Below are positions 3,213-61,770 of a DNA stretch of 64,000 nucleotides, one piece after another. How positions within the stretch are numbered: position 1 is the first letter of the stretch; each line of letters begins with the position of its first letter. The stretch spans positions 1 through 64,000 of the forward strand of contig JAJDUG010000002.1 in the NCBI GenBank assembly GCA_022826755.1, written 5' to 3'. A program made the position numbers and the translations under genes. The DNA is from Acidobacteriota bacterium. GTDB lineage: Bacteria; Acidobacteriota; Terriglobia; Versatilivoradales; Versatilivoraceae. Below the pieces are notes generated by a model that did not search any database, was not told where the DNA came from, and was given only the letters and a program-made list of their open reading frames with translations.

Positions 3213-3226
3213 AGAGGACAACCAAG

Positions 3227-4564
3227 ATGCTTCATCAACGACTGGCTGAACTGGAGAGAGGCGGGCGTCCGATCCAGGTGGGAATCATCGGCGCCGGAAC
3301 CTTCGGAACTCAAATCGTGGCTCAAACCTGCCGTATCGAAGGCATGCGAGTCGCGGCCATTGCCGACCTCAAGCCGGAGCGGGCTGTCCGGGCCCTGAGC
3401 CTCGGGGGCGTCCCCCGCGAGGACGTCCGGATCGCCAAGACGGCCGGCGAGATCGACCGGGCCATGGATGGGGATCGCCCGGCCGTGACCGCGGGGGCCG
3501 AAGAGCTGCTCGGCAGCCGGGTGGACGTGGTGGTGGAAGCCACCGGAATTCCCGAGGTTGGCGCCGCCAACGGCTATGGGGCCATCCGGCAGAAGAAGAA
3601 CCTGGTCATGGTGACGGTGGAAGCCGACATCCTGGTGGGGACACTGCTCAAACGGATGGCCGACCAGGCGGGCGTGCTTTACAGCATGGCCTATGGAGAC
3701 GAGCCGGCCCTGGCCGCCGAACTCTGCGACTGGGCGCGGACGCTGGGGTTCAAGCTGATCGCCTCCGGCAAGGGAACCCGCTTCAAGCTGGCCTTCCGCA
3801 AGGCCAATCCCGACGACGTCCCCAGGATGTACGGTTTCAAGGGCAAGGATTACAACGCCAGCATGTTCTGCTCTTTCCTGGACGGCACCAAGCACTCCAT
3901 CGAGATGGCGGCCCTCTCCAACGCCACCGGCCTGGTCCCCGACATCCGCGGGATGCACTTCCCGACGGCCGACTTGCGGGAGATCCCCGAAAAGCTCTGC
4001 CTCAAGGAGCGCGGCGGCATTCTGGAGACGGAGGGAGTGGTGGAGGCCGTCAGCTCCATCTTTCCCGACGACACCCCGGTGGAGCGCAGCCTGCGCGGCG
4101 GCCTCTATGCGGTGGTCGAAGGCCAGGACGACTTCCCGGTGGAGTCGATGGCCTCCTACGGAGAAATCACCGGCATGATCATCGGCGCCAGGAGCAGGCA
4201 CGCCATGATCTACCGTCCCCAGCACTTCATCGGGCACGAAGTCCCCATCGGGATCGCCCGCATGATGATCCACCGGGAACCGGTGGCCTCGGTGATCGGG
4301 CAGATTTCCGAGGTGGTGGCGTCCGCCAAGAAGCCTCTGAAGGCGGGAACCGTGCTGGATGGCGAGGGCGGCTACGCCACCTATGGAATGGTCGAACGGG
4401 CCGAGGTGGCCCGGGAGGAACGACTGGTTCCCATCGGCCTGACCCACGGCGCCGAAGTGATCGAGGACATCCCGGAAGACGGCATGATCACTTACGACAA
4501 CGTGAACCTGGTGGATTCGGAGCTGCTGGAGCTCAGAAAGAAGCAGGACGAACTGGGGGGTTAA
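3227..4564 (+). CDS. Homoserine-dehydrogenase-like oxidoreductase with C-terminal SAF domain
   Basis: The 445-residue product starts at the ATG 14 bp after the PLP enzyme stop, with AGAGGA upstream. The N-terminal VGIIGAGTFGTQI is a Rossmann nucleotide-binding motif; DVVVEATGIPEVGA and KKNLVMVTVEAD match the homoserine-dehydrogenase-like family COG4091 (predicted NAD(P) dehydrogenase with SAF domain). The C-terminal part from about residue 345 (ASAKKPLKAGTVLDGEGG) is the SAF region. In related operons such proteins act on branched or C4 sugar acids; here the substrate cannot be read. The pairing with the SelA-like enzyme suggests sequential steps in one pathway. The much longer open frame extending upstream is only absence of stops in GC-rich DNA. 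Confidence 0.82.
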   Translation: MLHQRLAELERGGRPIQVGIIGAGTFGTQIVAQTCRIEGMRVAAIADLKPERAVRALSLGGVPREDVRIAKTAGEIDRAMDGDRPAVTAGAEELLGSRVDVVVEATGIPEVGAANGYGAIRQKKNLVMVTVEADILVGTLLKRMADQAGVLYSMAYGDEPALAAELCDWARTLGFKLIASGKGTRFKLAFRKANPDDVPRMYGFKGKDYNASMFCSFLDGTKHSIEMAALSNATGLVPDIRGMHFPTADLREIPEKLCLKERGGILETEGVVEAVSSIFPDDTPVERSLRGGLYAVVEGQDDFPVESMASYGEITGMIIGARSRHAMIYRPQHFIGHEVPIGIARMMIHREPVASVIGQISEVVASAKKPLKAGTVLDGEGGYATYGMVERAEVAREERLVPIGLTHGAEVIEDIPEDGMITYDNVNLVDSELLELRKKQDELGG

Positions 4565-42400: not shown

Positions 42401-45400
42401 GCAGCAGCCGGTCCAACACCCTAAAGCCCTGTTCCGGGCTGAACCAGCCGGTTCCGGCTGCTTCCCGCCGCCGGGCGATCCGACCCCGCTGCTCCTCGGC
42501 CTCCCCGAGTCCCGACCACGCTCCCCAGGCGATGGCCTGTCCGGGAAGCCCCAGCGCGCGCCGGTGGGCGGCGAGTTGATCCAGGAAGGTGTTGGCCGCC
42601 GCGTGGTTGGCCTGTCCCGGATTGCCCAGGATCCCGGCCACGCTCGAGAACAGGACGAAGAGGTCCAGATCGCAGTCGGCGGTCGCCCGGTGCAAATGCC
42701 AGGCGCCCAGGACCTTGGGCCAGATGACCTGCTCGAACCGCTCCCAGCTCTGATTGGCCAGTGAAGCATCCGCCAGCACGCCCACGCTGTGGATCACGCC
42801 TCCAAGCGGCGGCAACTCCTCCTTGATCCGCTCGAGCATTCCGTCCACCGCCTCGGCATCGGTTACATCGGCCAACTCCACCCGCACCTTGACTCCGCGA
42901 TCCTTGAGCGCGCCGATCGCTTCCTCGGCGGCCGCGTCCGGAGACCGCCGGCCGTTCAATACGATCGCCCCGGCACCCCGCTCCGCCAGCCAGCCGGCCA
43001 GGGCGCACCCGATCCCGCCCAGGCCGCCGGTCACCAGGTAGGTGCGATCCGGCCGCAGCCGGCCCTCCACCAGCGACGGCGCGGTCAGTACGATCTTTCC
43101 GATGTGCCGGGCGTCCCGCATGAACTCCATGGCGGCTCCCGACTCGGCCAGCGGCCACCGGCTGTGGATCAGGGGTTTCAGCTCTCCCGCCCCCAGCCGT
43201 TCCATTACCTTGCGGAGGGCCGCTCCCGGCCGCGCCGGATCTTTTTCCTTCAGGACATCCAACTCCAGAATGGAGTAGGCCACATCCGGCCGCGCGGCCG
43301 CCATTTCCTCCTCGCTCAGGATGTCGCGCCTGGCCAACTCCACGAACCGGCCGCCGCGAGCCAGGCAGGACAGACTCGCCTCGATGAAACCCGGCCCCGT
43401 AAGGCTGTTCACGACCACTTCCACACCGGCGCCGGCGGTGGCTTCGAGGATCTCCTTGCCGAAGGAGGTCTGGCGGCTGTCGAACAGGTGCGCCACCCCC
43501 AGCGACCGCAGATAAGCCCGCTTGGGCGCGCTGGCGGTGGCAAAGACTTCCGCGCCGGCGGCCTGGGCCAACTGGACGGCCGCCAGGCCGACACCACCCG
43601 CGGCAGCGTGAATGAGCACCCGATCGCCGGGCCGCAGCCCTGCAAGATCGAAGGACAGGGCGGCGGTCACGAACGCGGTGGGCATGGTGGCCAGCGCGGC
43701 CACCGGAATCCCCGAAGGCGCCGGCGCCACCAGTTCCTCCCTCGTCACCACTTCCGGTCCAAACGTGCCGAACGCCAAGCCGACCACGCGGTCGCCCACC
43801 GAGACGGTTGAGGTCTCGGAACCGACCTCGATGATCCGGCCGCACATCTCCTCGCCCAGCGGGCCTTCACCAACCAGGCCCATGGCCCGGAACACATCGA
43901 GGAAGTTCAGCCCGCGGGCTTCGACCGCGACGCGAACTTCCCTTGGCTCCAGGGAACGGGGCGGCAAAGGCCTGACTTGAAGCTCTCCGAGGGCGCCGCC
44001 GGCGTCCGGCGCCAAATGCCAGTCCGACCCTTCCGGCAAGGCAAGGCGCGCCCGGCCCCGAACCAGGCGGGCCACCCGTCGGCGCCCGCCACGGTAGGCG
44101 ACTTGGGTCTCCGGGTCGGGAAACAGCAGTTCCTCCACCAAGTCGGCCGGCGACTCCCTCTCCTCGGGGTCGAGATCGATCATCTTGGGATTCAACTGCG
44201 CCGCTTCCCGGGCCACCACCCTGCCGAAACCCCACAACGGCGCTCCGGCCAGCTGCCCGGCGCGCTCCCTCTCCAGAACCTGCGCGCCCCGCGTGACCAG
44301 CCACATCCCCTTCGCGGGGGTCAGATCGGCATCGATCACGCCCTGCGTCAGCGCCAGCGCACTCGCCGCCGCTCGTCCGGAGTCCTCCCTCATTTCCTGC
44401 GCGGTCGCCCGGGCCGCCTGACCGTCCAGCCCCGCAAGATGCACAATACCGCCGAGGGGCAGATCACCGGGCAGCCGCTCCAGGAGGGACCGCCACGACT
44501 CCCGCCGATCCATCTCCACGGCTCTTCTGACGACTCCGGTCGCACCTTCCGCGGTTTCCAACTGCCCCGCCGATTCCTCGCCCGCCAGCACCACCGTCTG
44601 GTTCCGCTCCGCGAGTTGGGCCGCCAGCGCCGCCGCCACGCCGCCCCGGTCCGCCGCCAGAACCCATGCGGCCGGCGGCAGGATCACCTCCACCGGTCCC
44701 TGCGCCACGATCACGCCCCGGTCGGGCAACCCGGCCGACTCGGACTCGTCGACTCCCAGGATCCGGACATCGCCGAAACCCACGTCGCCGAGCGCTCGCC
44801 GCCACACCTCCGGCCCCGCCAGGGCGTGGCGCGAGCGGTACCGATCGGCGAATCGCCACCAACCGTCCAATTGTCCGAAAATCAGGTCCATCCAACCTCT
44901 GCCACGCTGGTTCTCCAGCGCCACAAGCTGTCCCGACGGCGCCAGGAGTTCCCGGCAGTGCATCAGCGTCTCGTCGAGATACTGGGTCGCATGCAGCACG
45001 TTGGCGGCAATCACCAGGTCGTAAACGTGGGAGTCGAAGCCCTGAGCCTTCGGCTCCTTCTCGATATCCAGGACGCGGTATTCGATCGGCACATCCGCCT
45101 GGCTGAAACGTCCCTCCGCCTCCGCGAAGAAGCCCGCCGAGATATCGGTGTAGGTGTAGTCGAACCGCCCGGGAGGCAGCCCGGGCAGGACGCACTCGGT
45201 CGCCGACCCGATGCCCGCGCCGACCTCCAGCACCCGGAGCCGCCGTCCGGCCGGCAACCCGGCCGCCAGGGTCTGCACCACCTCTCCCAGCATCAGGTTC
45301 GCCGCTCGCCACACCGCCGCCTTCCGGTAAAGATCGCCAGCCTGCGGTTCCGCGTCGCCGAACAGCAGCGACAGCGGGTCCTCACGGCCGCGAAGCACCT

Positions 45401-48400
45401 CCGGGAGGGCCCCGGCGCATCGCCGCATGAGCCCGATCTCGTTGGAACCGTGCGGGTAACGTGCGATCATGCCGGTCGCATGCTCCTCGGGACCCGGCGG
45501 CATGGCTTCCGGCAACCGATCCTCCGCCCCGACCGCCACCACGAAGCCCTCGCCCGCCGCCTCCAACACGCCCGACCGGGACACGATTTCGAGCATCCGG
45601 CGGAACAGGCGCGAGTGGTCCGGCAAAACCTCCAGGTCCTTCCGCAAGCCCTCGGCGTCCACGGCGGCGCCTGCCCTGCGCCGCCAACCCAGCTTTTCCA
45701 GGGCCGAAAGCGCATGGCACCAAGCCAACCGCTCCAGGTCGGCTTGCAGTGCAGCCTCTTCTTCGACTCCGACCCCTTCGTCGGCCAGGTACCGGGAGAA
45801 TGGCTTCGAGCGGGGGGCCATGTCCGAGGGGCTTGGGAGGAAATCGGCGGACGGCATTCCCGGCGCCAGGAGGCCGTCCCGCCACACCACCTCGTACAGG
45901 AGCTCGTCCACCCCTTCCACGGCCGAGAGCAGCGCTTCCCGGGTGGCCCGCTTCACCGTGTATCCATCCAGCCGGCCCAGCAGGGTCCCGCTCGGGTCGT
46001 AGATGCGGAGGTCCCCGGTAAGGACCTCGGGTAGCTCGGACCCCGCATCCGGCGCCGGAGTCCGCCCGTTCCCCGCCATGCGGGCGTGGCAGACAACCCG
46101 CTCCGGCAGCGCCCCCTTGAGCCACAGCCGTTCCCAACCGAAAGGCAGGTAGGTGACCCCCTCCCGGATCCCAGCCGTGTCGCGCGCCGCGGCCATGACC
46201 TGGAAACAACCGTCGAGCAGGAGAGGATGGACATCGAGCCCACCGGGGCCGATGCCTGCCGGAAGAGCCATCTCGCCAAGCGCCTCGCCCGCCCCGGACC
46301 AGACCGCTTCCAGCCCGCGGAACGAAGGGCCGAGATCGATTCCGACCTCGGCCTTGGCCCGGTAAAGGGCAACCACGTCCCGCGGCGACAGCCCGGTCTT
46401 GAGGCCTTCCAAATCCTCCCGCGGTTCGGCCGGGAGGCCGCCGTCGCCCGGCGACACCCGGGCCTCGGCGTGCAGCGTCCATTCGTCTCCGGATTCTCCC
46501 CGGCTGAGGATCCGGATACGGCGTGACGGCTCCTCGCCGGGACCGTCGAGCAGAACCTGCATCTTCCGGCCCCGTTCAGCCGCCCCCTCCCCGGCATCCT
46601 CGTCCGGGAAGATCAGCGGGTTGCGGAACTGCATATCCTCCAACGCGTCCCCTCCGGCGCCCTCTCCGAGGGAAGCCGATACCGCCATAGCCCCGTAGAG
46701 CGCACCCGGCGCCACCAGCCTGCCGAACACCCGGTGGTCCTCCAGCCAATCCGGGTCCGAGGGAAACACCTCCGTATCGAACGCAACCTCCCCGCTGGCC
46801 GATTCGTGCCGTTCCCCCAGCAGCGGATGGCCGATGCCGGTCCGCTGTCGCTTCCGTCCTTCGACCCAGTGCCGCCGGCGCTGGAAGGGATATTCCGGCA
46901 GCGAGATGCGGCGCCGGGTCTCGCCGGCGAACAACCCCTCGAAGGAAACCGGAAGACCCGCCTCGTAGGCGCTTGCGACCGCGGCCGTGAAGGCGCGGTC
47001 GGCTTCCGCCTGCGACACCCTGGTCGAGGGGCGCAGCAGGCTCGACAGCGCAACCGGCGGCCCACTGCCGTCTGCCGAGTTCGGCCAGGCCAGGGTCGCC
47101 ATCGAACCCAGCACCGCGTGCGGACCCAGTTCAAGGATCAGATCGACACCCAGACCCGCCAGCGTCTCCATGCATTGACGGAACGCCACCGGCTCCCGCG
47201 TATGCCTGCGCCAGTAGGCGGCATCCAGCCGCCCATCCGATTCCAGCACATCCCCGGTTACATTGCTCACCAGCGTAAGAGCCGGCGCCGGGAGTTCGAG
47301 CCGTTCGCAGGTGGCATCCAGCTCGTCCAGCATGGGCTCTACCAGGGCGCTGTGAAAGGCGTGCTCGGTCCGCAGGCGGTTGACCCGAATGTCCCGTGCA
47401 AGGAAACGCTCCGAGATGGCCGCGACCTCTTCTTCTGAGCCGCTCACCACCTGGTGGGCTCCGTTGTAGGCCGCCAGGCTCAGACCCACCCCATTGGAGG
47501 CCTCGTTCAGCTCGCGAACCGCCGCTTCCACCTGCGTCGCCGGCGCAAAGACCGCGGCCATGGCTCCTCTTGGCAGCTTTGCCGTCAGTTCGCCCCTGGC
47601 CGCGGCAAACCGCACCCCTTCCTCCAGGCCGAACACCCCCGCCGCCTGGGCCGCGGCAAGTTCCCCCAGGCTGTGCCCGAGCACGACACCGGGACGGACG
47701 CCCAGGCTCGACCACAGCGCCGTGAGGGCGCACTCCAGCGCGAAAACGGCCGGCTGCGTCCAGGCCTGGTCGGACAAGTCGGCCCCCGACCCGTTCCGTC
47801 CGAACATCACATCCAGCAGCGAGATTCCGCGGTCCTGGCGCAGCACGGAGTCACAGCGGTCCAGCACGGCCCGCGCCACCGGCTCGCTCTGGTACAGCTT
47901 CTCGCCCATGCCGACCCAATGGCTGCCCTGCCCGGTATAGACAAAGGCCACCTTGGACGGCGCCGGCGGCGCCGGCCCGGCGCCCGACGAGGCAAGCGCG
48001 CTCAGTCCGGCGCGCAGGGACTGGGCGTCCCGGAACACCAGGCCTGTCCGGTGCCCAAAGTGACTGCGCCCGACGCCCGCTGTCCAGGCCATGTCCGCAA
48101 GCATGTCCTCTGCGGCGCCAGAGGAAGCCGGTTCGCCCGCGCGCTCGTCGAGCCAGGAGAGATAGCGCCCTGCCAGATCCTTGAGCGCCTGGTCCGACTT
48201 CCCCGACAGCGGCAGGATACGCGTCTCCCGCGCCTGGAGAGCTGCCCCCACCGCGGTCAGATCCGCAAGCGGCTCCGGCATCAGAACCGCAACCCTCCGC
48301 CCGGCGCCGGCAGGCGAGTTCATCCCGTTTCCGGCGGCATCACCGCCCGGGGCGCCGTACCCCTCCACCACCACGTGCGCGTTGGTGCCGGACCATCCGA

Positions 48401-49715
48401 ACCCGCTCATGGCCGCTATCGGGAGCTGATTGCCATGGAGCGGCCAGTCCGCCGGCTCCGAAGCCACCCGCAACGGCAGGCGGTCCCAGTCCACCTCGGG
48501 AGTGGGCTTCCGGAAGTGGAGGTGCCTGGGAATCACTCCCCGCTTCATCGCCAGCATTACCTTGATCAGCGCGGCGACCCCGGCGGCGGACTCCAGGTGG
48601 CCGATATTGGTCTTCACCGAACCGATCAGCAGGGGGCGGTCCATGGCGCGCTCCTTGCCGTAGGCCGCGGCCGCGGCCTGCAATTCGATGGGGTCCCCCA
48701 CCTCTGTTCCCGTTCCGTGGGCCTCCAGATAATCCACCTCCGAAGGCAGAACCCGCGCACGCGACAACGCCGCCTCGATCACACGCGCCTGGGCCGTCCC
48801 GTTCGGCACGGTCAGCCCGGGGCTGGCTCCATCCTGGTTGACTGCCGAGCCGCGGATCACTCCCCAGATCCGGTCTGCGTCCGCCTCTGCTTCCTCGAGC
48901 CGCTTCAGGACCACGATTCCACAGCCTTCGCCCCGCACGTAACCGTCCGCGGCGGCGTCGAAGGTCTTGCAGCGCCCGTCCGGCGCCAGCATCCCGGCCT
49001 TCGCGCGCAGTTCCGAAAGCCGTCCCGACAGGATCAGGTGCACGCCTCCGGCCAGTGCCAGATCCGCCTCCCCCCGCTGCAGTGCCGACACCGCCTGGTG
49101 TATAGCGACCAGCGATGACGAGCAGGCGGTGTCGAGCGCCATCGCCGGTCCCTCCAGACCCAGAGCGAAGGCGACCCGTCCAATGGCCGTGTTGAAGGAA
49201 GTTCCGCTGACGGCATAAAGGCTGGCGGCAGGCTCGGTAATCTCCTTTCCGCCCAGGATCAGGCTACGGTAATCGTGATTGCTGATCCCCGCATACACCC
49301 CGGTGCGACTTCCCCTCAAGCCGTCCGGGTCCATTCCCGCGTCCTCCAGAGCCCGCCAACTGGTCTCCAGCATCATCCGCTGCTGCGGGTCCAGCAGGTC
49401 AGCCTCGACCGGGGAGATCCGAAAGAAGGCTGCGTCGAACAGGTCGATCCTGTCCAGGTAACCCCCGAACCGGCAAGCCTCCCTCTGAACTTCGGCGTCC
49501 GGAAACAGCTCTCCCACCCGACCCACCCCGGAACCCGGGACTCCTTCCGTCACAGCGTTCTCACCAGCCGCCAGCAGGCGCCAGAAGGCCGCAAGGTCCT
49601 CCGCGCCGGGGAACCGGCACGCCATCCCCACCACGGCGATCGGCTCTGCCGCCCGGACCGTCTCCACCCCATGTGCTCGATTCTCAACCGGGTGCGGGGA
49701 TCGATTGCTTCCCAT
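39429..49715 (-). CDS. Type I polyketide synthase: KS-AT-DH-cMT-psiKR-ER-KR-ACP-KS-AT(inactive)
   Basis: A 3428-residue enzyme, ATG at 49715 with AGAGGAG 7 nt upstream. Domains (residues): KS1 24-455 (Cys 198 in DTACSS, His 333, His 373); AT1 588-905 (GHSLGE, Ser 682; HAFH 785-788, malonyl-type); DH 962-1255 (HRVFGRLVAP, His 994; Asp 1168); cMT about 1465-1655 (VLEVGAGIGSAT); structural psiKR about 1680-1890; ER 1905-2215 (AAAGGVGLAAVQ); KR 2224-2400 (TGGLGGIG; His 2371 at the catalytic Tyr position); ACP 2500-2575 (GIDSL, Ser 2534); KS2 2602-3020 (ELNCAASL, Cys 2765; His 2900, His 2940); AT2 3148-3425. AT2 has GHGVGE instead of GHSxGE and lacks about 90 residues including the HAFH region. 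There is no thioesterase. It should extend with malonyl-CoA, C-methylate and fully reduce, suggesting a methyl-branched fatty-acid-like product. Confidence 0.93.
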   Translation of the reverse strand: MGSNRSPHPVENRAHGVETVRAAEPIAVVGMACRFPGAEDLAAFWRLLAAGENAVTEGVPGSGVGRVGELFPDAEVQREACRFGGYLDRIDLFDAAFFRISPVEADLLDPQQRMMLETSWRALEDAGMDPDGLRGSRTGVYAGISNHDYRSLILGGKEITEPAASLYAVSGTSFNTAIGRVAFALGLEGPAMALDTACSSSLVAIHQAVSALQRGEADLALAGGVHLILSGRLSELRAKAGMLAPDGRCKTFDAAADGYVRGEGCGIVVLKRLEEAEADADRIWGVIRGSAVNQDGASPGLTVPNGTAQARVIEAALSRARVLPSEVDYLEAHGTGTEVGDPIELQAAAAAYGKERAMDRPLLIGSVKTNIGHLESAAGVAALIKVMLAMKRGVIPRHLHFRKPTPEVDWDRLPLRVASEPADWPLHGNQLPIAAMSGFGWSGTNAHVVVEGYGAPGGDAAGNGMNSPAGAGRRVAVLMPEPLADLTAVGAALQARETRILPLSGKSDQALKDLAGRYLSWLDERAGEPASSGAAEDMLADMAWTAGVGRSHFGHRTGLVFRDAQSLRAGLSALASSGAGPAPPAPSKVAFVYTGQGSHWVGMGEKLYQSEPVARAVLDRCDSVLRQDRGISLLDVMFGRNGSGADLSDQAWTQPAVFALECALTALWSSLGVRPGVVLGHSLGELAAAQAAGVFGLEEGVRFAAARGELTAKLPRGAMAAVFAPATQVEAAVRELNEASNGVGLSLAAYNGAHQVVSGSEEEVAAISERFLARDIRVNRLRTEHAFHSALVEPMLDELDATCERLELPAPALTLVSNVTGDVLESDGRLDAAYWRRHTREPVAFRQCMETLAGLGVDLILELGPHAVLGSMATLAWPNSADGSGPPVALSSLLRPSTRVSQAEADRAFTAAVASAYEAGLPVSFEGLFAGETRRRISLPEYPFQRRRHWVEGRKRQRTGIGHPLLGERHESASGEVAFDTEVFPSDPDWLEDHRVFGRLVAPGALYGAMAVSASLGEGAGGDALEDMQFRNPLIFPDEDAGEGAAERGRKMQVLLDGPGEEPSRRIRILSRGESGDEWTLHAEARVSPGDGGLPAEPREDLEGLKTGLSPRDVVALYRAKAEVGIDLGPSFRGLEAVWSGAGEALGEMALPAGIGPGGLDVHPLLLDGCFQVMAAARDTAGIREGVTYLPFGWERLWLKGALPERVVCHARMAGNGRTPAPDAGSELPEVLTGDLRIYDPSGTLLGRLDGYTVKRATREALLSAVEGVDELLYEVVWRDGLLAPGMPSADFLPSPSDMAPRSKPFSRYLADEGVGVEEEAALQADLERLAWCHALSALEKLGWRRRAGAAVDAEGLRKDLEVLPDHSRLFRRMLEIVSRSGVLEAAGEGFVVAVGAEDRLPEAMPPGPEEHATGMIARYPHGSNEIGLMRRCAGALPEVLRGREDPLSLLFGDAEPQAGDLYRKAAVWRAANLMLGEVVQTLAAGLPAGRRLRVLEVGAGIGSATECVLPGLPPGRFDYTYTDISAGFFAEAEGRFSQADVPIEYRVLDIEKEPKAQGFDSHVYDLVIAANVLHATQYLDETLMHCRELLAPSGQLVALENQRGRGWMDLIFGQLDGWWRFADRYRSRHALAGPEVWRRALGDVGFGDVRILGVDESESAGLPDRGVIVAQGPVEVILPPAAWVLAADRGGVAAALAAQLAERNQTVVLAGEESAGQLETAEGATGVVRRAVEMDRRESWRSLLERLPGDLPLGGIVHLAGLDGQAARATAQEMREDSGRAAASALALTQGVIDADLTPAKGMWLVTRGAQVLERERAGQLAGAPLWGFGRVVAREAAQLNPKMIDLDPEERESPADLVEELLFPDPETQVAYRGGRRRVARLVRGRARLALPEGSDWHLAPDAGGALGELQVRPLPPRSLEPREVRVAVEARGLNFLDVFRAMGLVGEGPLGEEMCGRIIEVGSETSTVSVGDRVVGLAFGTFGPEVVTREELVAPAPSGIPVAALATMPTAFVTAALSFDLAGLRPGDRVLIHAAAGGVGLAAVQLAQAAGAEVFATASAPKRAYLRSLGVAHLFDSRQTSFGKEILEATAGAGVEVVVNSLTGPGFIEASLSCLARGGRFVELARRDILSEEEMAAARPDVAYSILELDVLKEKDPARPGAALRKVMERLGAGELKPLIHSRWPLAESGAAMEFMRDARHIGKIVLTAPSLVEGRLRPDRTYLVTGGLGGIGCALAGWLAERGAGAIVLNGRRSPDAAAEEAIGALKDRGVKVRVELADVTDAEAVDGMLERIKEELPPLGGVIHSVGVLADASLANQSWERFEQVIWPKVLGAWHLHRATADCDLDLFVLFSSVAGILGNPGQANHAAANTFLDQLAAHRRALGLPGQAIAWGAWSGLGEAEEQRGRIARRREAAGTGWFSPEQGFRVLDRLLREDPATAVVLAADWSLFGEAVEGRPSLFEDLLPAAGDDSADSAGAPEDLLARLGRAPAAARQELLVSFLQQEVQAVLRLPSAPESAVGFFDLGIDSLMAVELRNRLNRAFAGEYVAPNTLVFDYPNIAALAGHLVEALGEVGGAPAPQDKPEPESRPAVGSEDDGIAIVGMACRFPGAPDLAAFWRQLEAGADALTDGRWNSGSGSAAELSGEYAPYRRGGFVEGIDEFDSRFFRIAPIEARGMDPQQRMLLETSWQALEDAGIDAEGLRGSRTGVYAGVAASEYRDLMMTSNRTVSYLGTAGSMTVGRVAFVLGLEGPTVPVELNCAASLVAAHQAVMGLRQGEVDLALVGGVNAVLSPGLTREMAELGMLSREGRCKTFDAAADGFVRGEGCGMVVLKRLREAEADGDRIWGVIRGSAVNQNGATAGPTVPNGPAQERVIEEALSRAGVPPSEVDYLEAHGAGSALGDPIEVQAAAAVYGRGREADRPLLIGSVKTNIGHLETAAGVAGLIKAVLAMKRGLIPRQLHFRDPNPHLDWERFPVRVTSESTDWPLRADRQPRAAVSAFGVSGTNAHVVLEGYEADSGASSEGFLPAGSARPVAVSMPEPLADLPLSGEEFRTRETRLLPLSGKSYAALRELAGCYLSWLDERGEELAGAAEQPLLADLAWTAGVGRSHFGYRAGVVFHDAASLRDGLKALADERPEPAAAKVAFACTGEGSQWVGMGQALYQREPVVRAVLDRCDAMLQEERGASLLEAMFGRSGSEGALDAPTWAQPAIYALECALAALWSSVGIRPGMVVGHGVGELAAAHAAGVFGLEEGLRLAAALSEERHPEGISVAPPFLALVSSATGRVMEPGEAPDQGYWQRQSHETAAFDQCAETLADRGAQVVVEVGPQAVLGPMVASAWPESAGGISAPVVLSSLRRESQGDHEFVKAVAGAYEAGLGVSFAGLFAGETRRRISLPGYPFQRRRHWIDAPKQMTSSSAG

Positions 49716-49839: not shown

Positions 49840-51516
49840 CTACTCCACTTCCCTGTAAAGCAGCACCGAACCTGAGGCGGCTTGCTGGAGCTGCAGTCGG
49901 ATGCGGGCCGCGAAGTCGTCCAGCACCGCCCGGGTCAGGAAGCGGGCGCCTGCGCCCGCGATCAGCGTCACCACGGCAACCGCGGCCACCGAGCGGAACA
50001 GGAAGTACTGGACCCCGACCGCGACCCCCACGACCAGGAAGAAGGCCAGCATCAGCACCAGGTCCGCCGCACCGCGGGTCGGCAACGCTTGCTTGCCGAA
50101 GGGCACACCTTCGATCAGCCTCACTCCCACACCCAGATAGAGAGACGCCACGGCCATGCTGAAAGCGACAAAGAGCAAGGCGTCCCGCATCGGCCAGAAC
50201 CAAGCCAGCACCGGCAGCGCCAGGAGGTTGGGAACAACCGCCAGCCAATGCCACAGCGCCGCATGGATTCCTCCCGCGAAGGGGCGGAAAGAAGACTCGG
50301 GAGCGCTGAAGAACCAGGCGATGGCTTTGAAGTCATTGCCATAGGCCAGAAACCGGCAGGTCATGAGAATCGCCAGTCCGAGCACGTGAGGCAGTAAGTG
50401 GGTGAAGGCGAATCCCGGCCCGAAGGGAGAGGCCAACCCGGCGCGGGCCAACACGACGCACAAGAAAAGGATCGGGAAAGCAAGGCGGGTGGCTGCTTCT
50501 CTGCGGAACTGCCAGTCCCGGAGCATCAGGCAACGCAGATATTCGAAGCCCGCGCGGCCGGCCTGGCCGACGGCAACCCGGGCGACCCAGGGGCCCACCG
50601 CCGATCCTTTGCGCTTGAGCTTACGGATCCCGCGGCCGGAGTGCATCAGGCCCGAGACACGGATCAGGTGGTCCACCGAAAGAGCGCGCAGCCCCTGGAG
50701 GACAACGACCAACCCGACCGCAGTGCCCGCCGCCCCCAGCAACACCGGGAATCCGTCCGGCAGGGCGTCGGCTGCAGCCGGCCACCCCTGGAACAGCTCG
50801 ACCGAACCCGCCCAATCCACGAAATCCTGCCACAACCGGATCAGCATCTGGAATCCGAACAGGAGTAGCATGGGGACCACCTGCATCAGGCCGGCAGCCG
50901 CCTTGAGGCGCCGCACCGGAACGAAGCGAATCAGCCAGCCGAACAGGCTGCAGCAGAGCAGGCCGACCACCGTCCCCACTCCCAGGGCAATCAGTAAGTG
51001 TTCCAGGGGATAGAACAACCAACGACTCCCCTCCCCGTGAGGAAGAGAGAGACCGACCAGCGCCGGCACTGTGTTGACTCCCGCCACCACGTAGACCACC
51101 GCCTTGACCAGATGGGTCAGCTTGGCGGCCGACCAGGTGGCTCCGTTGACGGGCTGCTGGGCCAGAATCAGCCCTTCGACGGGGTTGACCAGGTTCTCGG
51201 CCACTACGGGGATCAGGACCACTATGAGATTCAAAAAAGTAATGCCGACAAATACGAGGAGGTACCACCAGGGATCGGTACCGGTGAAGGCCATTACCAG
51301 GCTCATAAGGCCAGCCAGGAAGAACCAGAAGGTCACAAGGACCCGCAGGGAGTAGTCCTGGTTGCCCACCTGGGCCACTTCGCCCCGGTTGCCCAGCGTC
51401 CGGAACAGATCGACCAGGAGCCAGTAGCTGCGGGGCTGGATGCCGCAGCCTTCCAGCAGCCGGGTAAAGGCCCTGCCGCGAAGCCAGCGCCTTGCGATCG
51501 AACCGAGGACCCTCAT
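49840..51516 (-). CDS. ABC transporter permease-like membrane protein
   Basis: A 558-residue protein with about 12 hydrophobic segments (for example VLVTFWFFLAGLMSLVMAF, LVFVGITFLNLIVVLIPVV, LPVLAWFWPM), no periplasmic binding domain and no ATPase motif. Its start overlaps the ABC ATPase stop (51513-51516, ATGA), so it is the membrane half of an export-type ABC system. The family is poorly characterised. Its stop lies 124 bp before the PKS start, with a separate promoter between. A role in exporting or placing the PKS product is possible, but the pair could be unrelated. Confidence 0.75.
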   Translation of the reverse strand: MRVLGSIARRWLRGRAFTRLLEGCGIQPRSYWLLVDLFRTLGNRGEVAQVGNQDYSLRVLVTFWFFLAGLMSLVMAFTGTDPWWYLLVFVGITFLNLIVVLIPVVAENLVNPVEGLILAQQPVNGATWSAAKLTHLVKAVVYVVAGVNTVPALVGLSLPHGEGSRWLFYPLEHLLIALGVGTVVGLLCCSLFGWLIRFVPVRRLKAAAGLMQVVPMLLLFGFQMLIRLWQDFVDWAGSVELFQGWPAAADALPDGFPVLLGAAGTAVGLVVVLQGLRALSVDHLIRVSGLMHSGRGIRKLKRKGSAVGPWVARVAVGQAGRAGFEYLRCLMLRDWQFRREAATRLAFPILFLCVVLARAGLASPFGPGFAFTHLLPHVLGLAILMTCRFLAYGNDFKAIAWFFSAPESSFRPFAGGIHAALWHWLAVVPNLLALPVLAWFWPMRDALLFVAFSMAVASLYLGVGVRLIEGVPFGKQALPTRGAADLVLMLAFFLVVGVAVGVQYFLFRSVAAVAVVTLIAGAGARFLTRAVLDDFAARIRLQLQQAASGSVLLYREVE

Positions 51517-52313
51517 GACCGCAGACCCTCGATGATTTCGGTGACACCGCTCACGGTTTCCTCGGCCTGGGTCAGTTGCCGGAAGACGTCTTCCAGGCTG
51601 CCCCTCTCGGTGGAGGCCTTCAGCGACTCCAGCGACCCGTCCGCGATGAGACGCCCCTCATGGATGATCAGGGCGCGGTCGCAGACGCGCTCCACCACGT
51701 CCAGGACGTGGGAGCTGTAGAGAATGGTCCTGCCCTCAGCGGCCAGGGCGGCCACCAGGTCCCGGACCATGAGCCCGGTGTTGACGTCCAGCCCCGAGAG
51801 TGGCTCGTCCAGCATCACCAGCTCGGGATTGTGCAACAGGGCCGCGCTCAGCAGCACCTTCTGCCGCATGCCCTTCGAGTAACCGTCCAGCCGGCGCCGG
51901 CGCTCCCCGTCCAGGTCGAAGTGCTTGAGGAAGAGGTCAATGCGAGCCTGAAGGGTCGGCTCGGGGACTTCCTGAAGGCGGCCCATCAGCTCCAGGAACT
52001 CCTGCCCCGTCAGGCTCTCGAACAGCGCGGCCGCCTCCGGCACATAGCCGATGCGCTTCTTGGCCTCCACCGCCTCTCCCGGCATGGAAAAACCGGCGAC
52101 CCGAACCGATCCTCCGCCCGGAGGCAGGATGCCCGTCAAGACCTTGATGGTGGTGCTCTTGCCGGCCCCGTTGGGACCCAGCAGCCCCACCACCTCGCCC
52201 CTCCCCAGGGTAAAGGAAATCCCGTGCAGCACCTGCCGGCTGGCATAGCTGAAGGTCAGCCCCTCCACGGTCACGACAGAATCAGAACGACTGGCTTCAC
52301 TGAAGGGAGGCAT
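51513..52313 (-). CDS. ABC transporter ATP-binding protein
   Basis: A 266-residue ABC ATPase of the CcmA/NatA type. Walker A GPNGAGKST is at residues 46-54, the Q-loop region reads IGYVPEAAALFESL, the signature is YSKGMRQKV, Walker B is ELVMLDEPLSGLD, and the switch His is in ILYSSHVLDVVE. It powers the membrane protein encoded immediately downstream, with which it shares an ATGA overlap. NatA-type systems export drugs, ions or lipids. The first residues (MPPFSEASRSDS) are outside the domain and the start could be slightly later. Confidence 0.88.
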   Translation of the reverse strand: MPPFSEASRSDSVVTVEGLTFSYASRQVLHGISFTLGRGEVVGLLGPNGAGKSTTIKVLTGILPPGGGSVRVAGFSMPGEAVEAKKRIGYVPEAAALFESLTGQEFLELMGRLQEVPEPTLQARIDLFLKHFDLDGERRRRLDGYSKGMRQKVLLSAALLHNPELVMLDEPLSGLDVNTGLMVRDLVAALAAEGRTILYSSHVLDVVERVCDRALIIHEGRLIADGSLESLKASTERGSLEDVFRQLTQAEETVSGVTEIIEGLRS

Positions 52314-56051: not shown

Positions 56052-56054
56052 TGG

Positions 56055-56939
56055 TCAGCGCTGTTCTCCTTGATTCCTGTGTTTGTTCACAAGATAGGCG
56101 GCGAAGGAGGCGCAAGCCCCAAACATGAACATGGATTCGTCCAGCCCAACATCCGGGGAATCCTTATCAAGAAGGGCGTGCCGGATCCCTTGTTCGTCGC
56201 TTGTATAGCCGTAGAGTTTCTTGAATGCTTCTTTGAGCGCTGGATGATTCAGTAGCCCGCCCCTTTCAAGAGAATCCAGCGCAGGCCCAAGGGTCTGGCT
56301 CGCTCCTGAATCAAGTACCCGTGCGACGGATTCGACCGCATGGACACTGTCGGTGATGGAATCCCCATATTGCCGTGCGTTGATGTGCTCGGCCGCTTGG
56401 CGCAGGTGCGTTGCCGCGCCTTGCATACCACCTTGGTGAAGCGTCTCAATGGCCTGCCTTACAGACTCGCCTTGTTCCTTGCTAGTTTGAGGAAAAAATC
56501 GATATGGACGCCTTGACGTGTCCAGCCGGTAGGCAGCGGAGTTTTCAAACAGATCTCTCAATCGTTCCTTCAGCTCCCCTGTTGCATCTCTGTCGTTAAC
56601 TATGATCTCAACTAGATCGAGAACACGATTGAACTCCCTTTGTAATGCTACCTGCTTAAAAGAGTTTAGAACGTTCTCGTAATTGGTGTTGATTTGATCT
56701 TCGGGTTGCTTCCATAGTTTTCCTAATACACGCTCACAAAATCTTTTGGCCCCCTCATCAAGATAGTAGCCAGCATAATGTCGTCTATGCCTCAGCAGTT
56801 TTTCTCGAATCACATTCCAGACTTCTCGACGCAGATCTTCCGAAATTTCCTCCAGTCGCATAGGCTCCGGCACGGGTTCGTAACTGTAGCGTTGCGAGAA
56901 AGTAAGATGACAAGGAGAGTTGTTTCGGTTAATTGTCAT
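56055..56939 (-). CDS. AbiJ-like abortive-infection/HEPN-type protein
   Basis: The ATG at 56939 shares a base with the methyltransferase stop (TGATG), giving 294 residues; the longer frame would overlap that gene. The N-terminal 140 residues (LTFSQRYSYEPVPEP, LRREVWNVIREKL) resemble the AbiJ N-terminal domain family (NTD4). The C-terminal part (RGGLLNHPALKEAFKKLYGY, DEQGIRHALL, FMFGACASFAAYLV) is the HEPN-like module common in such proteins; Arg 253-His 254 could belong to an RNase-type RxxxxH-like site, but the motif is not complete in my reading. AbiJ-type proteins stop phage by killing or arresting the cell. Being placed between Mod and Res with no gap points to a joint function. Confidence 0.72.
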   Translation of the reverse strand: MTINRNNSPCHLTFSQRYSYEPVPEPMRLEEISEDLRREVWNVIREKLLRHRRHYAGYYLDEGAKRFCERVLGKLWKQPEDQINTNYENVLNSFKQVALQREFNRVLDLVEIIVNDRDATGELKERLRDLFENSAAYRLDTSRRPYRFFPQTSKEQGESVRQAIETLHQGGMQGAATHLRQAAEHINARQYGDSITDSVHAVESVARVLDSGASQTLGPALDSLERGGLLNHPALKEAFKKLYGYTSDEQGIRHALLDKDSPDVGLDESMFMFGACASFAAYLVNKHRNQGEQR

Positions 56940-59900
56940 CAATCTACTCCTTCGAACATCAACTCTCTGAAAAACGGTTCGATGGTTTTGGCGTTCCAGC
57001 ATTCGTCCGGCTGCCGCACGGCGTTCAAGGTGTGGTCACCGTTGACATAGACGATATCGAGCGAGTCAGCGAATTGCGCCCGGTTGCGGACAAACCATGC
57101 TTCCAGCGCGGTGTTATCTGTTTCGATCAGATTTCGCCAGAGGATCAAGCACTTGCGCCCTTGGACGTCTGCGCCCGTCTCGGCGAGCACACCGTCGATC
57201 CGTCGGCGGAATTCCAGGCGCAGGCCGATCAGGAAGTTGAAGGTTTCAGGCAGATCGACCGGCGTTTCCTGGCGAATGCCGCCACGGACGACGGAGAGCG
57301 TGTAGGCGAAGGGGTCGGTGAAATGTTTCCCCAGCAGGCAGGCGCTTTCGGAGGTTTCCTGGCCCAATGCATAACGCAGCCGGTAATCCTCGCCCAGCGC
57401 AGGGTTTCCGGCCAACAGTGCCCCTTGTTCATCCGCCCTTGGCGTCAACTCAAGACCGTCCAACGTGTCCTCGTAGGATTCCAGGCGGATGTACTTGAAA
57501 CACTGAGTGGAACCGTTGCGTGAAATCGGCTGGCCGTCCTTCCAGTCCGGCGAATAGACAACCTTTTTCATGCGCGGCAACAAGACCGTATCAAAGTGAT
57601 GTCCAACCTCCACCAGAATGTACTTGCGACTACCGCCATCTTTACGGTTGAGATTTACAACCGCATGACCGGTCGTGCCGGAGCCGGCGAAATGGTCAAG
57701 GATGAGACTCGTTTGTGTGGATGTTTGGGAGATGAATCTCCTGGGTAACGTCGTCGGCTTGGGAGTTGGAAAGAGGCCAGTCACACCAAATAGAGCCGCT
57801 ATTTGCTTCTCGCCATCTGTGTAGTCATGGAAAAGCGATTTGGCGACGTTCGTTTCAACATCATGCACAAATCTCTTATATTGAGGAACCTTCGTCTCAT
57901 CTTCACCCCAGACAATTCGCCCTGCCCGATCCAGTGCCACGAAGCTGTCACGGGTATCATCGGGCCAAATCTGTGGCCATGCCCAACCACGCTTAGGAAC
58001 GCGGCAAGGTTTCTTAGTGACCGGGTGCAGGGGACGGTAGAAGCGGTAATTGGCATGGGTCGGATCTTGTGTGGTGTCGGACTGTTTTTGAGCTGGAGCG
58101 GATGAATCAGATTCCCGCCAAATCACTAGCCGCGCTCCTTTGGCCCTCGCTTCTTGATCGCAAACAACGCGGCCATTGCCATTCCGATACTCTCCATGGC
58201 AATAGTTGTAGATGCCACGCCAAGGGTCTTGCCTTCTCGCTTCCCTGTCATACTCCTGGTTTCGCTGCTGCAATTCGACCTTGTACTGCTCTACGTGGCG
58301 GCTGAACAGATCCTTAATAGCCTCCTCTACTTTGGCTATTGTGGGATAGCGAGGATTCAACTCGTTGACAAGCTCCATGAGTTCCAAAAAACCTGGTTTA
58401 GCCTCGCGGAACATGGCCGTTGCACGTTCGGCAGCGACGCGATTGCGAACATAGACCTCAATATATTCATGATTGGTCGAATACAGTGGCGACTGGCTAT
58501 GGGTTGTATTCTGCCCCCAGATCAATTCCTCGATTCGGTTGGAGCGATCAAACGTTCCGTCGAGTACTGCCTGTAGGCTGTCGCGCTCGTTCTCATCTAT
58601 GTTGGAGAATAATGCTCCATCCCGTTGCAACAGAACCCGCGCAAGATCAAGCCGATCCCGCATCATGGTCAGCCATGACGAGTGACGGTAACTGTCTTTG
58701 TAAAGAAAACTGTCGCCCAAACGGTTGTACGGCGGGTCGATGGCGATGGTTTTTATCTGGCCCCGATATCTCGCCTGCAGCAGGTTCAGCGCCTGGAAAT
58801 TCTCGCCGTGTACGAGCAAACCGTCCAATTGGTCTTCCAGGGGACCGGTGTCTGACAATGCTGCCAACAGCCGGTCCCTAAAGGCACGGTCGAAATGGCG
58901 AGTGTCCAGCACCAGATAGGGGTTGGTCTTGAGAAACTGTTGGGTCAGCGGTTGGGTGTAGCCCGCGTTGTCATTGGCAAGGTTGCCTTCAATTCTGTTG
59001 ATGGCGAACAGGTTCACCCATTCCTGGCGCTGGGCGTCATTCGCGACGATCTCGGGATAGAGAGCCTCCGGCACGCGGTCCAAGGTCACGCACCATTGGG
59101 TTTCCAGGACGAATTTCTTCTTGAGCCAGAGATGTTTTTGGAAGTCCTCAATCTGTGCAAGAAAGGTGGTGATCTTGTCCGCTACTTGGCGAACCGCCCG
59201 CGTTCGAGCCAGCGCTCGGCTCAGCCGGGCCGCCTCCCCGACCGTCAGGTCGTCCAGGTTCAGCACTTCGTTTTTCAGGTAGAAATCCAGCTCCCGGCGC
59301 AGAAATCCACCCAGGTCCTTGTGAATGAAATAGTCGAAGCTGTTCCTGGCCGTGTAGACAGCCAGGTGCTTGTCCAGGACGCTGCGGTCAGGATGACTTT
59401 CCGTGGGGGCTGGTGCGGCCAGCAACGCCAACCAATCCGGCGCCAAGGCCCTGAAGATTCGTTGACGGGCTGATTCATTGATGCGGTCCTGCTGTCTGCT
59501 GCCGCTGCCGGGCCAGGTTTTCTTTTCGCGTTCCGCCAATGGCCGGTGCTCGAAGCGGACGACCAGATCGCGACCTTCGATGGTGATGGCGCTCTTGCCG
59601 CCGGTGAGCACGAAACGGCGCTGCTTGCCGCTGGTTTCCTTGATGTTGTCCTTTTCGCCGTCGGCCGCCGCAATTTCGAAGCGAACGCGACGCTGCTGCG
59701 CACCAGGCCCAACAGTGAAGGCGTAGGAAGAATAATTCTCGGTGGTCTTGACGTAGTACTGATCCTGATTGGCCCAGTGAAGCTTCACTTCCTCGCCGTC
59801 GTAGGGGATGAGATAAGCTGAGCGGCCTCCTCCCGAATAGCGCCGCTGGGAGATGAAGTCGCCTTCGGCGTAGTAGCGGGCAAAGAAGTTGGCGAGATGG

Positions 59901-60289
59901 TTGTAGACCTCGGCTTCCGCGGCTGCGTCGGCCCTGGCCTCTGCCAGCTTTCGTTTCAACTCAACAACTGTCTCCTGTTCGTCGGGATCAATCCTCAACT
60001 TCCAGGCCGCTTCTCTGGCTTCGGTTAGAGCCCCGTACAGCGCTGCCCGCTCGTCGTCAACCAGCTCGGCCAGGACGGTTTTGACCTGCGGCAGCAGATC
60101 GTTTTCCAGGAACGCATCTATCTCGGCCGCCTTCAGGTTCATGATTCGGTACAGACCGAAATCGAGATCGCCGCGGTCAAGCTGGAACATCGCTCGCAAC
60201 AGATCCTTCAGCCTGTCGAATTTGTCGGTGGATTGCGGAGAAGGTTGCGTGCCCTTTGGCCCTGTTCTGAATTCTGTCGATTCGCTCAT
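56939..60289 (-). CDS. Type III-like DNA adenine/cytosine N-methyltransferase (Mod)
   Basis: The ATG at 60289 overlaps the upstream stop (ATGA), giving 1116 residues; a TTG at 60343 lies within the neighbour. Residues 518-522 are DPPYN (catalytic motif IV) and 867-873 FAGSGTT (SAM-binding motif I), in the beta-class order IV then I, as in type III Mod. The N-terminal 500 residues (LDRGDLDFGLYRIMNLKAAE, RYSGGGRSAYLIPYDGEEVK) are a long extension found in large variants; the middle (about 630-790) is the target-recognition region. It should methylate one strand of an asymmetric site. The Res-like helicase-nuclease is in the same operon, with an AbiJ-like gene between. Confidence 0.88.
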   Translation of the reverse strand: MSESTEFRTGPKGTQPSPQSTDKFDRLKDLLRAMFQLDRGDLDFGLYRIMNLKAAEIDAFLENDLLPQVKTVLAELVDDERAALYGALTEAREAAWKLRIDPDEQETVVELKRKLAEARADAAAEAEVYNHLANFFARYYAEGDFISQRRYSGGGRSAYLIPYDGEEVKLHWANQDQYYVKTTENYSSYAFTVGPGAQQRRVRFEIAAADGEKDNIKETSGKQRRFVLTGGKSAITIEGRDLVVRFEHRPLAEREKKTWPGSGSRQQDRINESARQRIFRALAPDWLALLAAPAPTESHPDRSVLDKHLAVYTARNSFDYFIHKDLGGFLRRELDFYLKNEVLNLDDLTVGEAARLSRALARTRAVRQVADKITTFLAQIEDFQKHLWLKKKFVLETQWCVTLDRVPEALYPEIVANDAQRQEWVNLFAINRIEGNLANDNAGYTQPLTQQFLKTNPYLVLDTRHFDRAFRDRLLAALSDTGPLEDQLDGLLVHGENFQALNLLQARYRGQIKTIAIDPPYNRLGDSFLYKDSYRHSSWLTMMRDRLDLARVLLQRDGALFSNIDENERDSLQAVLDGTFDRSNRIEELIWGQNTTHSQSPLYSTNHEYIEVYVRNRVAAERATAMFREAKPGFLELMELVNELNPRYPTIAKVEEAIKDLFSRHVEQYKVELQQRNQEYDREARRQDPWRGIYNYCHGEYRNGNGRVVCDQEARAKGARLVIWRESDSSAPAQKQSDTTQDPTHANYRFYRPLHPVTKKPCRVPKRGWAWPQIWPDDTRDSFVALDRAGRIVWGEDETKVPQYKRFVHDVETNVAKSLFHDYTDGEKQIAALFGVTGLFPTPKPTTLPRRFISQTSTQTSLILDHFAGSGTTGHAVVNLNRKDGGSRKYILVEVGHHFDTVLLPRMKKVVYSPDWKDGQPISRNGSTQCFKYIRLESYEDTLDGLELTPRADEQGALLAGNPALGEDYRLRYALGQETSESACLLGKHFTDPFAYTLSVVRGGIRQETPVDLPETFNFLIGLRLEFRRRIDGVLAETGADVQGRKCLILWRNLIETDNTALEAWFVRNRAQFADSLDIVYVNGDHTLNAVRQPDECWNAKTIEPFFRELMFEGVD

Positions 60290-61386
60290 GACGTAGTCAC
60301 CCACTCCAGTCGCACCTTCAGTTTGTTCAGAGGTGTCCCCCAAGGTATATGGCCTTCGTGCTGGAGCTTCCCGACAACTATGCCCGGGGCTATCCCTTGT
60401 TCCTTGGCGAATTGACGAATTGAACTTTGACTATATAGCGCCGCAGCAACAAACTGTTCCCAATGGGTGTGGGACACAACAACATGAGAGGCCCAATTGT
60501 CGGCTTCTGCTTCGACGTCAGTGGTCTCCTTATTGGCCTTCGTGCCGTCGATAAAGATACCCTTCTTGCTATGTAGAAGAATATGAGCGGCCTCGTGGAA
60601 TAGGCTGAACCACAAATGGTCGTCCGTCTTATGGCGTGCGCTGAGTGCAATCACAGCCTTTCGAGGGGTCAGCCACCAGGCGGCGCCGCTGATGGCGGTT
60701 TTCGGGAACGGTTTAATCAGCTCTAAGGCAACGCCCGCATCGCTACAAAGTTGTTGCGCTTCTTCCATAGCTCCCTCGATCGGTTTTTGCGTGAGTTCGC
60801 GGACCCTCCTCAAGGCTTGTTTGAATCTAACCGGGTTGTAATCGAGACACTTCTTCCGTTCTGCATTGAGCTCTCCAATCCGGAGCCATGCTGTCAGCGA
60901 TGCCTTATCGCTCTCAAAACTGGTCGAGTGCCGAAATGCGACACTCATCCCTTTGTACTTCACGTCCCACGCCTCGACCGATCCGACCCCATAGAAGGCC
61001 AGCAGCTTCGACACCGCGTCCAAATCAGAGGCAGGCCGCGCTACTACCCGGCGTTTCACCAACTCTTTAAGAGGCAATGTCTTCATCCAGGAAGCAGTTT
61101 GTTTTGCTTGCCTCGCCTCCTCCTCGCGCGCCCGATGGAGCTGATAATCCGTTTCAATGCCGAGCCAGATGCCGGCGTCGACTCCCAAGACTCTCTCGAA
61201 CTGCAGCGCAGTCTTCGGCTCGACCGGCGCCTTGCCCGAGATGATCTCACTGATAAGCTTTGCGGAACGGCCGCAGCGCCGGGCGAACTCTGCGTGTGAG
61301 ATACCGTATGCCTCAAGGCGCTCCGCCAGGATCGCCCCCGGTGGAACGGCATAGTCGGGTTGGTATTGATTGGCCTCCTTCACCAT
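60286..61386 (-). CDS. HigA-like HTH fused to ImmA/IrrE metallopeptidase
   Basis: A 366-residue protein. Residues about 15-75 are a HigA-type helix-turn-helix (LAERLEAYGISHAEFARRCG, LISEIISGKAPVEPKTALQF). The C-terminal half is an ImmA/IrrE (DUF955) zinc peptidase with HEAAH at 264-268 and a downstream Glu in VEAEADNWAS as third ligand. Such fusions act as antitoxin and repressor that can be removed or can cleave a partner when the cell is stressed. It starts 15 bp after the HigB-like toxin gene and its stop overlaps the methyltransferase start, which makes it part of the restriction operon. It is the likely binder of the operator at 61754-61770. Confidence 0.87.
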   Translation of the reverse strand: MVKEANQYQPDYAVPPGAILAERLEAYGISHAEFARRCGRSAKLISEIISGKAPVEPKTALQFERVLGVDAGIWLGIETDYQLHRAREEEARQAKQTASWMKTLPLKELVKRRVVARPASDLDAVSKLLAFYGVGSVEAWDVKYKGMSVAFRHSTSFESDKASLTAWLRIGELNAERKKCLDYNPVRFKQALRRVRELTQKPIEGAMEEAQQLCSDAGVALELIKPFPKTAISGAAWWLTPRKAVIALSARHKTDDHLWFSLFHEAAHILLHSKKGIFIDGTKANKETTDVEAEADNWASHVVVSHTHWEQFVAAALYSQSSIRQFAKEQGIAPGIVVGKLQHEGHIPWGTPLNKLKVRLEWVTTS

Positions 61387-61401: not shown

Positions 61402-61737
61402 CTAATGATAGTCAACGATCTCGATGACAGTAATCGCAGTCACTTGCTCCGTGTCGATCCCCCCGTCCGCTTTAACCGGAATCGGGTCATGATCAGGTCT
61501 GAAAACCAGCCGGTGGGGATGAACGAGATCGACGGCGTACTGCTCATTCCGCCTGCCTTTGAGCGGGTGGCACCGATCCGGACGGGTGGTCGGCACATGC
61601 GACAATGCGCGGGCATTCTTAAGGACGGCGAGACGATACCTGATCGTCTGCGCCATGCGGTTGCCGTATGCCTTACGGAGAGCGTCAATCGAGTTGAATG
61701 TCTTGGCGAGCCTTCGACTACGAAAAGTGATTTCCAC
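61402..61737 (-). CDS. HigB/RelE-family toxin
   Basis: A 111-residue protein starting at GTG 61737. The sequence EITFRSRRLAKTFNSIDALR, MAQTIRYRLAVLKNARALSH, CHPLKGRRNEQYAVDLVHPH, RLVFRP then ITVIEIVDYH fits the RelE/HigB killer-protein fold: basic, with the strand-rich C-terminal half and Arg residues expected to bind ribosome-associated mRNA. Toxin before antitoxin is the HigBA order, and the next gene encodes the HTH antitoxin with a peptidase domain. It is the first gene of the operon, directly downstream of the promoter/operator. No strong ribosome site is visible before the GTG. Confidence 0.8.
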   Translation of the reverse strand: MEITFRSRRLAKTFNSIDALRKAYGNRMAQTIRYRLAVLKNARALSHVPTTRPDRCHPLKGRRNEQYAVDLVHPHRLVFRPDHDPIPVKADGGIDTEQVTAITVIEIVDYH

Positions 61738-61753: not shown

Positions 61754-61770
61754 GTTACCTATCAGGTAAC
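61754..61770 (-). promoter_or_regulatory. Operator-like perfect palindrome before the HigB/RM operon
   Basis: GTTACCTATCAGGTAAC has perfect 7-bp arms around ATC. It begins right after the -10 hexamer and covers the expected transcript start, 17 bp before the toxin GTG. This is where HigA-type repressors bind, so it is the probable autoregulatory site for the whole five-gene operon. Confidence 0.65.

Follow-up and report, generated by a model that had tools for sequence, protein, structure and literature searches.

An AbiJ-type HEPN gene separates mod from res in a type III restriction-modification operon of an Acidobacteriota bacterium

Introduction

In type III restriction-modification (R-M) systems, mod usually lies directly beside res, although this arrangement is not obligatory. 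In the stretch of Acidobacteriota DNA analysed here (64,000 nucleotides of contig JAJDUG010000002.1, hereafter the window), about 890 bp separate the two genes and carry a third one, which raises the question of what this gene does inside the operon and whether it depends on the enzyme around it. A first-pass annotation had recognised a HEPN/AbiJ-type gene, taken its tight junctions as a sign of selection on stoichiometry, and proposed an effector triggered when Res acts or stalls. R-M loci are known to harbour embedded defence genes (PMC11411939, PMC12255303), and some AbiJ members are found in operons with R-M systems (Anantharaman et al. 2013, PMC3710099).

Results

The operon is encoded on the minus strand in the order HigB, HigA-IrrE, mod, HEPN, res (Table 1). 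Mod belongs to the beta class, with DPPYN preceding the FAGSGTTG motif, and matches both the N6_N4_Mtase and the MTase_III profiles. Res carries the GSGKT and DEGH motifs and a C-terminal PDFIVW...DPK. The features of a type III R-M system, a beta-class Mod and a Res helicase-nuclease, are thus present. The phage collection contained no relative of the window Mod. Elsewhere in the window, a modular type I polyketide synthase of 3428 aa (39429-49715) is followed by ABC transporter genes (49840-52313).

Table 1 Features of the mod-HEPN-res operon in the window.
Feature	Position	Strand	Evidence
HEPN/AbiJ_NTD4 (PDC-S32) gene, 294 aa, mod/res-embedded	56055..56939	-	PF18863 E=1.2e-15; PDC-S32 E=3.9e-61
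TGATG, mod stop/HEPN start overlap	56937..56941	-	sequence; same register in relatives
C-terminal HEPN-fold domain, residues 168-290, putative RNase effector	56070..56438	-	AlphaFold2 and fold search
R253-H254 dyad, loop between last two helices, in place of Rx4-6H	56178..56183	-	20/20 homologues
Helical core of N-terminal domain, residues 36-135, hypervariable, putative sensor	56535..56834	-	block identity, dN
mod, beta-class type III methyltransferase, 1116 aa	56939..60289	-	PF01555 E=7e-29; MTase_III E=1.8e-196
res, type III restriction subunit, 1022 aa	52983..56051	-	ResIII E=3e-7; REase_III E=2e-150
HigA (XRE) fused to IrrE/M78 peptidase domain	60286..61386	-	PF06114, PF01381; TIGR02607; PD-Lambda-2_B E=2e-38
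HigB-like toxin gene, GTG start	61402..61737	-	weak PF05015; orthologues
Palindrome GTTACCTGATAGGTAAC, candidate HigA operator	61754..61770	-	comparison with L078, L080, L084

The position of the HEPN gene was confirmed from the sequence. The Mod stop codon TGA (56941-56939) shares one nucleotide with the HEPN ATG (56939-56937), and the HEPN gene ends at 56055, leaving a 3-bp gap (56052-56054) before the Res ATG at 56051. An ORF reaching to 57002 is a mere in-frame extension into mod, and relatives conserve the start at 56939. Translation of the HEPN gene could start at the mod stop. Junctions as tight as a 1-nt overlap or 3-bp gap are commonplace in bacterial operons; hence, spacing alone is a weak argument for stoichiometry. 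In addition, HEPN and res are each preceded by a Shine-Dalgarno-like AAGGAG of their own, and the stoichiometry argument found no support. The signal that rises above chance is the conservation of the mod-HEPN-res arrangement.

The identity of the embedded protein as an AbiJ/HEPN-type protein was borne out. Its residues 13-165 match the Pfam family AbiJ_NTD4 with 58.7 bits, against a cut-off of 34, and the same family is matched by all 14 aligned members. The PADLOC profile PDC-S32 (positions 7-282 of 285) is matched over 277 residues (12-288). In the AlphaFold2 model (mean pLDDT 80.5), the C-terminal half folds as a HEPN domain: among 483 chains, the top five VIA matches of residues 168-290 are all HEPN domains, with Z of 11.7-12.6, values that helical bundles can reach by chance, and Z drops clearly from these five to the non-HEPN rows. 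The N-terminal domain alone gave a best fold-search Z of 4.8 (death-fold-like helical bundles) and nothing significant with Foldseek. Sequence searches against solved structures returned chance-level matches only, and BFVD gave no significant match. Viral contigs yielded no match to the window HEPN as sole query, and seven distant solo HEPN copies with an alignment as query; these aided structure prediction.

The search for catalytic residues suggested by the first-pass annotation had a mixed outcome. The canonical HEPN motif Rx4-6H is absent, since R253 and H254 are adjacent and no histidine lies 5-7 residues past the arginine. Instead, the R253-H254 pair itself is invariant in all 20 homologues, and likewise in A1 and A3. 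E203, an acidic residue upstream of the RH motif, is present in 19 of the 20. Both features, the dyad invariant and E203 nearly so, extend to homologues that have no R-M neighbour. The loop that bears the dyad (247-261) is modelled with pLDDT below 50. RNase activity at a non-canonical site made of the RH dyad and E203 is therefore a prediction from residue conservation, and the effector role initially proposed is probable.

The order mod-HEPN-res is found in seven complete loci and a truncated one, spread over three phyla. Besides the window, it occurs in another species of the same genus (L094; Res 85% and HEPN 61% identical to those of the window), in a gammaproteobacterium (L004) and in L077-L080, four Nitrospirota loci where mod and res are both present; in Nitrospira (L003), the contig stops after HEPN. 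The overlap of Mod stop and HEPN start recurs in L003, L004, L077, L078, L079, L080 and L094, and the tight HEPN-res junction in L079 and L094. In L077 and L080, a remnant of the res head stands directly behind HEPN, followed by an insertion. These loci come from a sample of MAGs and other genomes, in which Mod was scored among the top candidates per genome. In a Mod tree built without L094, which was found later, one clade (97% SH-aLRT) comprises 9 rows, and 7 of these are HEPN-linked Mods. The remaining two belong to L040, which has mod and res side by side, and to L084, where other genes fill the slot. The comparison of mod-X-res loci proposed in the first-pass annotation thus found the HEPN gene kept between mod and res across three phyla. 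Repeat-like palindromes, GTCGGGTTAGCCGAAGGCGTAACCCGAC and variants, lie directly behind HEPN in L003 (3035-3080), L078 (9143-9190) and L113 (after 9907).

Strict co-inheritance of HEPN and Mod was considered and rejected, as the linked HEPNs do not form one clade (p-AU 1e-5). The HEPN of L077 falls together with those of L004 and the solo L005, yet its Mod is sister to the window Mod. Exchange with unlinked copies has therefore taken place, and the HEPN tree gives no support to strict co-evolution of HEPN with Mod/Res.

HigB and HigA-IrrE stand upstream in most mod-HEPN-res loci, behind a conserved palindrome. HigB orthologues, 58-62% identical, precede HigA in L078, L080 and L084, and HigA overlaps mod in the window by ATGA. 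The palindrome GTTACCTGATAGGTAAC adjoins a -10-like TAAAAT, 17 bp before HigB; at this position, GTTACCTnnnAGGTAAC is shared by the window, L078 and L084, and with one mismatch by L080. The palindrome came from this comparison, the promoter scan having returned no more sites than expected by chance. We propose it as a candidate HigA operator of the HigB-HigA-mod-HEPN-res operon, which would place mod, HEPN and res under one switch. HigA-IrrE also lies near mod in the more distant L042, L044, L046 and L081, accompanied by HigB in L042 and L081, and the toxin-antitoxin-like pair is therefore an old companion of the type III family.

Across the 43 loci of the Mod/Res family that have both genes, mod and res are adjacent in 27 and separated by inserted genes in 16. 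The inserts are AbiJ-type HEPN genes (seven loci), MNT-HepT (L049, L052, L085), an AAA gene with DUF4276 (L062, L069), RhuM (L064), a YhcG nuclease (L083), AIPR (L081), and an unknown gene with an aspartyl-protease-like gene (L084). The mod|res slot is thus a cargo site in this family, and the MNT-HepT pairs indicate that HEPN-fold RNases entered it more than once. Scars of insertion or exchange are visible. In L079, a 285-aa gene between mod and HEPN (7848-8972) is flanked by a 93-bp copy of the mod 3' end, 84% identical, and this duplicated tail is such a scar, as are the res-head remnants of L077 and L080.

Two further observations concern the genome of the window itself. A distantly related second type III R-M system (L039, contig C58, 4769-12863) has two genes in its slot, one for an AAA ATPase (PDC-M07A/HEC-01A-like) and one for a 186-aa protein, and the junctions show two 4-bp overlaps and one 3-bp gap; an AbiJ_NTD4 protein is encoded alongside (2595-3596, minus strand). 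A relative of the window system, located at contig ends (L043 on C14, L095 on C7), has an empty slot, with mod directly beside res and a DrmD-like SNF2 helicase upstream. The SNF2 gene accompanies much of the Mod/Res family and is missing from the HEPN clade.

The N-terminal domain of HEPN changes far faster than its surroundings. Between L078 and L080, identity is 88% for HigB, 86% for HigA, Mod and Res, 94% for the Mod specificity region and 56% for HEPN, where it falls to 25-37% per 40-column block from residue 41 to about 160. In the core, dN reaches 0.74-0.77 with saturated dS (0.74 for L078 vs L080), as compared to a Res dN of about 0.07-0.08. Saturation of the synonymous sites points to replacement by divergent alleles, not only to fast substitution. 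Between the window and L094, two islands have been replaced, one in Mod (its specificity region) and one in HEPN (the N-terminal core); the other DNA is 80-86% identical. The same contrast is seen in the unlinked pair L030 and L031 (core 43%, C-terminal part 75%). The idea that the N-terminal domain is fitted to the Mod specificity region was rejected, as this region is 94% identical in L078 and L080 while the core is replaced. Judged from these alignments, the pattern matches that of a recognition domain joined to an unchanging effector; rapid change of the core could also reflect escape from phage inhibitors.

In three Nitrospirota relatives, the HEPN gene has outlived its neighbours. The close homologues of L111, L112 and L113 look solo, and each directly follows a fossil of the Mod C-terminus (EPTFRELMF, EPVFREMMF and DPVSHELMF, respectively). 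L112 and L113 retain a HigA tail and occupy the chromosomal site that holds the whole operon in L078. HEPN of L112 is followed by a short stretch resembling the res head, as read by eye. In all three, the HEPN ORF is intact and keeps the RH dyad. Hence, mod and res were lost and HEPN was kept, which argues against a toxin that is fired by Res or held by Mod/Res as antidote, although the trigger may have changed in these genomes. Upstream of 15 other HEPN homologues, no Mod fossil was found. The majority of the HEPN family is unlinked to mod or to any R-M system. The trigger first imagined, Res acting or stalling, is at odds with these deletions and with the solo majority, and also with the turnover of a sensor-like domain next to Res and to a Mod (specificity region included) that remain 86-94% identical. 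Of that initial reading, the AbiJ/HEPN type, the conserved order and a probable effector remain.

Discussion

We consider it probable that the HEPN gene encodes an autonomous two-domain sensor-effector that adds a second defence layer to the R-M operon in which it is embedded. The gene would be co-transcribed with mod and res from a HigA-controlled promoter and inherited along with the R-M system as that second layer. Its fast-changing N-terminal helical bundle would sense a component of the invader, most likely a phage protein. Sensing would set free the HEPN domain of the C-terminal half, which would then cleave RNA and halt the infected cell, an abortive outcome.

A wider reading is offered tentatively, as possible rather than expected. 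The family would be a type III subfamily in which the mod|res slot is reserved for effectors. Operons of the HEPN clade would then unite two specificity modules that are exchanged independently of each other, one for DNA (the specificity region of Mod) and one that senses protein (the N-terminal core of HEPN), under one HigA-IrrE switch, and HEPN would work at a non-canonical RH site with or without the R-M enzyme.

The conserved embedding and the overlapping genes also fit a guard of the PrrC type, proposed by Anantharaman et al. 2013 (PMC3710099) for R-M-linked HEPN proteins, in which Mod and Res would keep HEPN inactive until anti-restriction proteins or the action of Res free its RNA cutting. 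The present data weaken this explanation, which we regard as unlikely: HEPN is intact where mod and res are deleted (L111-L113), most homologues are solo, divergence of the N-terminal core is unmatched by change in Mod/Res, and no Pfam match to a PrrC-like regulatory ABC ATPase was found. PrrC of EcoprrI (type Ic) resembles the window protein as a HEPN effector inside an R-M operon; it differs in having an ABC ATPase domain and in being held by its R-M enzyme, whereas the window gene persists without R-M.

Survival of HEPN by itself also agrees with passive cargo, where the mod|res junction would do no more than tolerate recombination and HEPN would share only transcription with the R-M genes. 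Unrelated modules do occupy the slot in relatives, and the duplicated mod tail (L079) and res-head remnants (L077, L080) are marks of insertion; however, the slot contents are nearly all defence or toxin genes rather than a random set, and HEPN is retained beside 7 of the 9 Mods of its clade, which makes mere passage quite unlikely. That HEPN could be catalytically dead, acting as an RNA-binding regulator or as a structural subunit of Mod-Res, is suggested by the absent Rx4-6H and by several top fold matches to non-toxin HEPN proteins. Still, the invariance of R253-H254 and near-invariance of E203, even away from R-M genes, count against it, and a structural subunit should neither carry a hypervariable domain changing beside constant partners nor outlive these partners; we hold it to be very improbable.

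The candidate family PDC-S32, which the window protein matches over its full length, reportedly stems from a survey by Payne et al. 2024 termed 'guilt-by-embedding'. PMC12988326 describes PDC families as derived from a survey of genes embedded in known defence systems. A literature search found no papers on PDC-S32 itself. For what is so far a candidate family, the present data describe the hypervariable core, the RH dyad and the persistence of HEPN where R-M genes are lost. In AbiJ proteins, Rx4-6H is listed as conserved (Anantharaman et al. 2013); the window protein, which belongs to AbiJ-NTD4 above the Pfam cut-off, differs in having its R and H adjacent.

Tha, from Staphylococcus aureus prophages, offers a precedent for the proposed mechanism and is alike by its described architecture: both have about 300 aa, a divergent N-terminal half and a C-terminal HEPN domain. 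Tha (301 aa) has no discernible N-terminal domain, a C-terminal HEPN RNase, and a proven trigger in phage tail proteins (PMC11087260). In contrast to the window protein, which lacks R-x4-H, Tha has R265-x4-H270 and is prophage-borne. TgvAB and DarTG2 are likewise second defence systems nested between R-M subunits (PMC11411939, PMC12255303), with other effectors and in type I systems, unlike the type III operon of the window. In PD-lambda-2 (HigB, HigA-peptidase and a third component), the B component is matched by the window HigA-IrrE, whereas A and C are unmatched and the window pair precedes a type III R-M operon.

Embedding as a phenomenon, the PDC-S32 candidate family and AbiJ genes in R-M operons were thus already known; the present analysis adds the conservation of this operon, the varying content of its slot, a hypervariable HEPN core that changes independently of the Mod specificity region, and the Mod fossils. 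Whether an embedded gene depends on its host R-M system is usually an open question, and here natural deletions answer it in one direction: the HEPN gene outlives mod and res. The invariant RH in place of Rx4-6H bears on the range of variation that a HEPN active site tolerates. Finally, a recognition-like domain that changes amid constancy points to the part that meets the phage.
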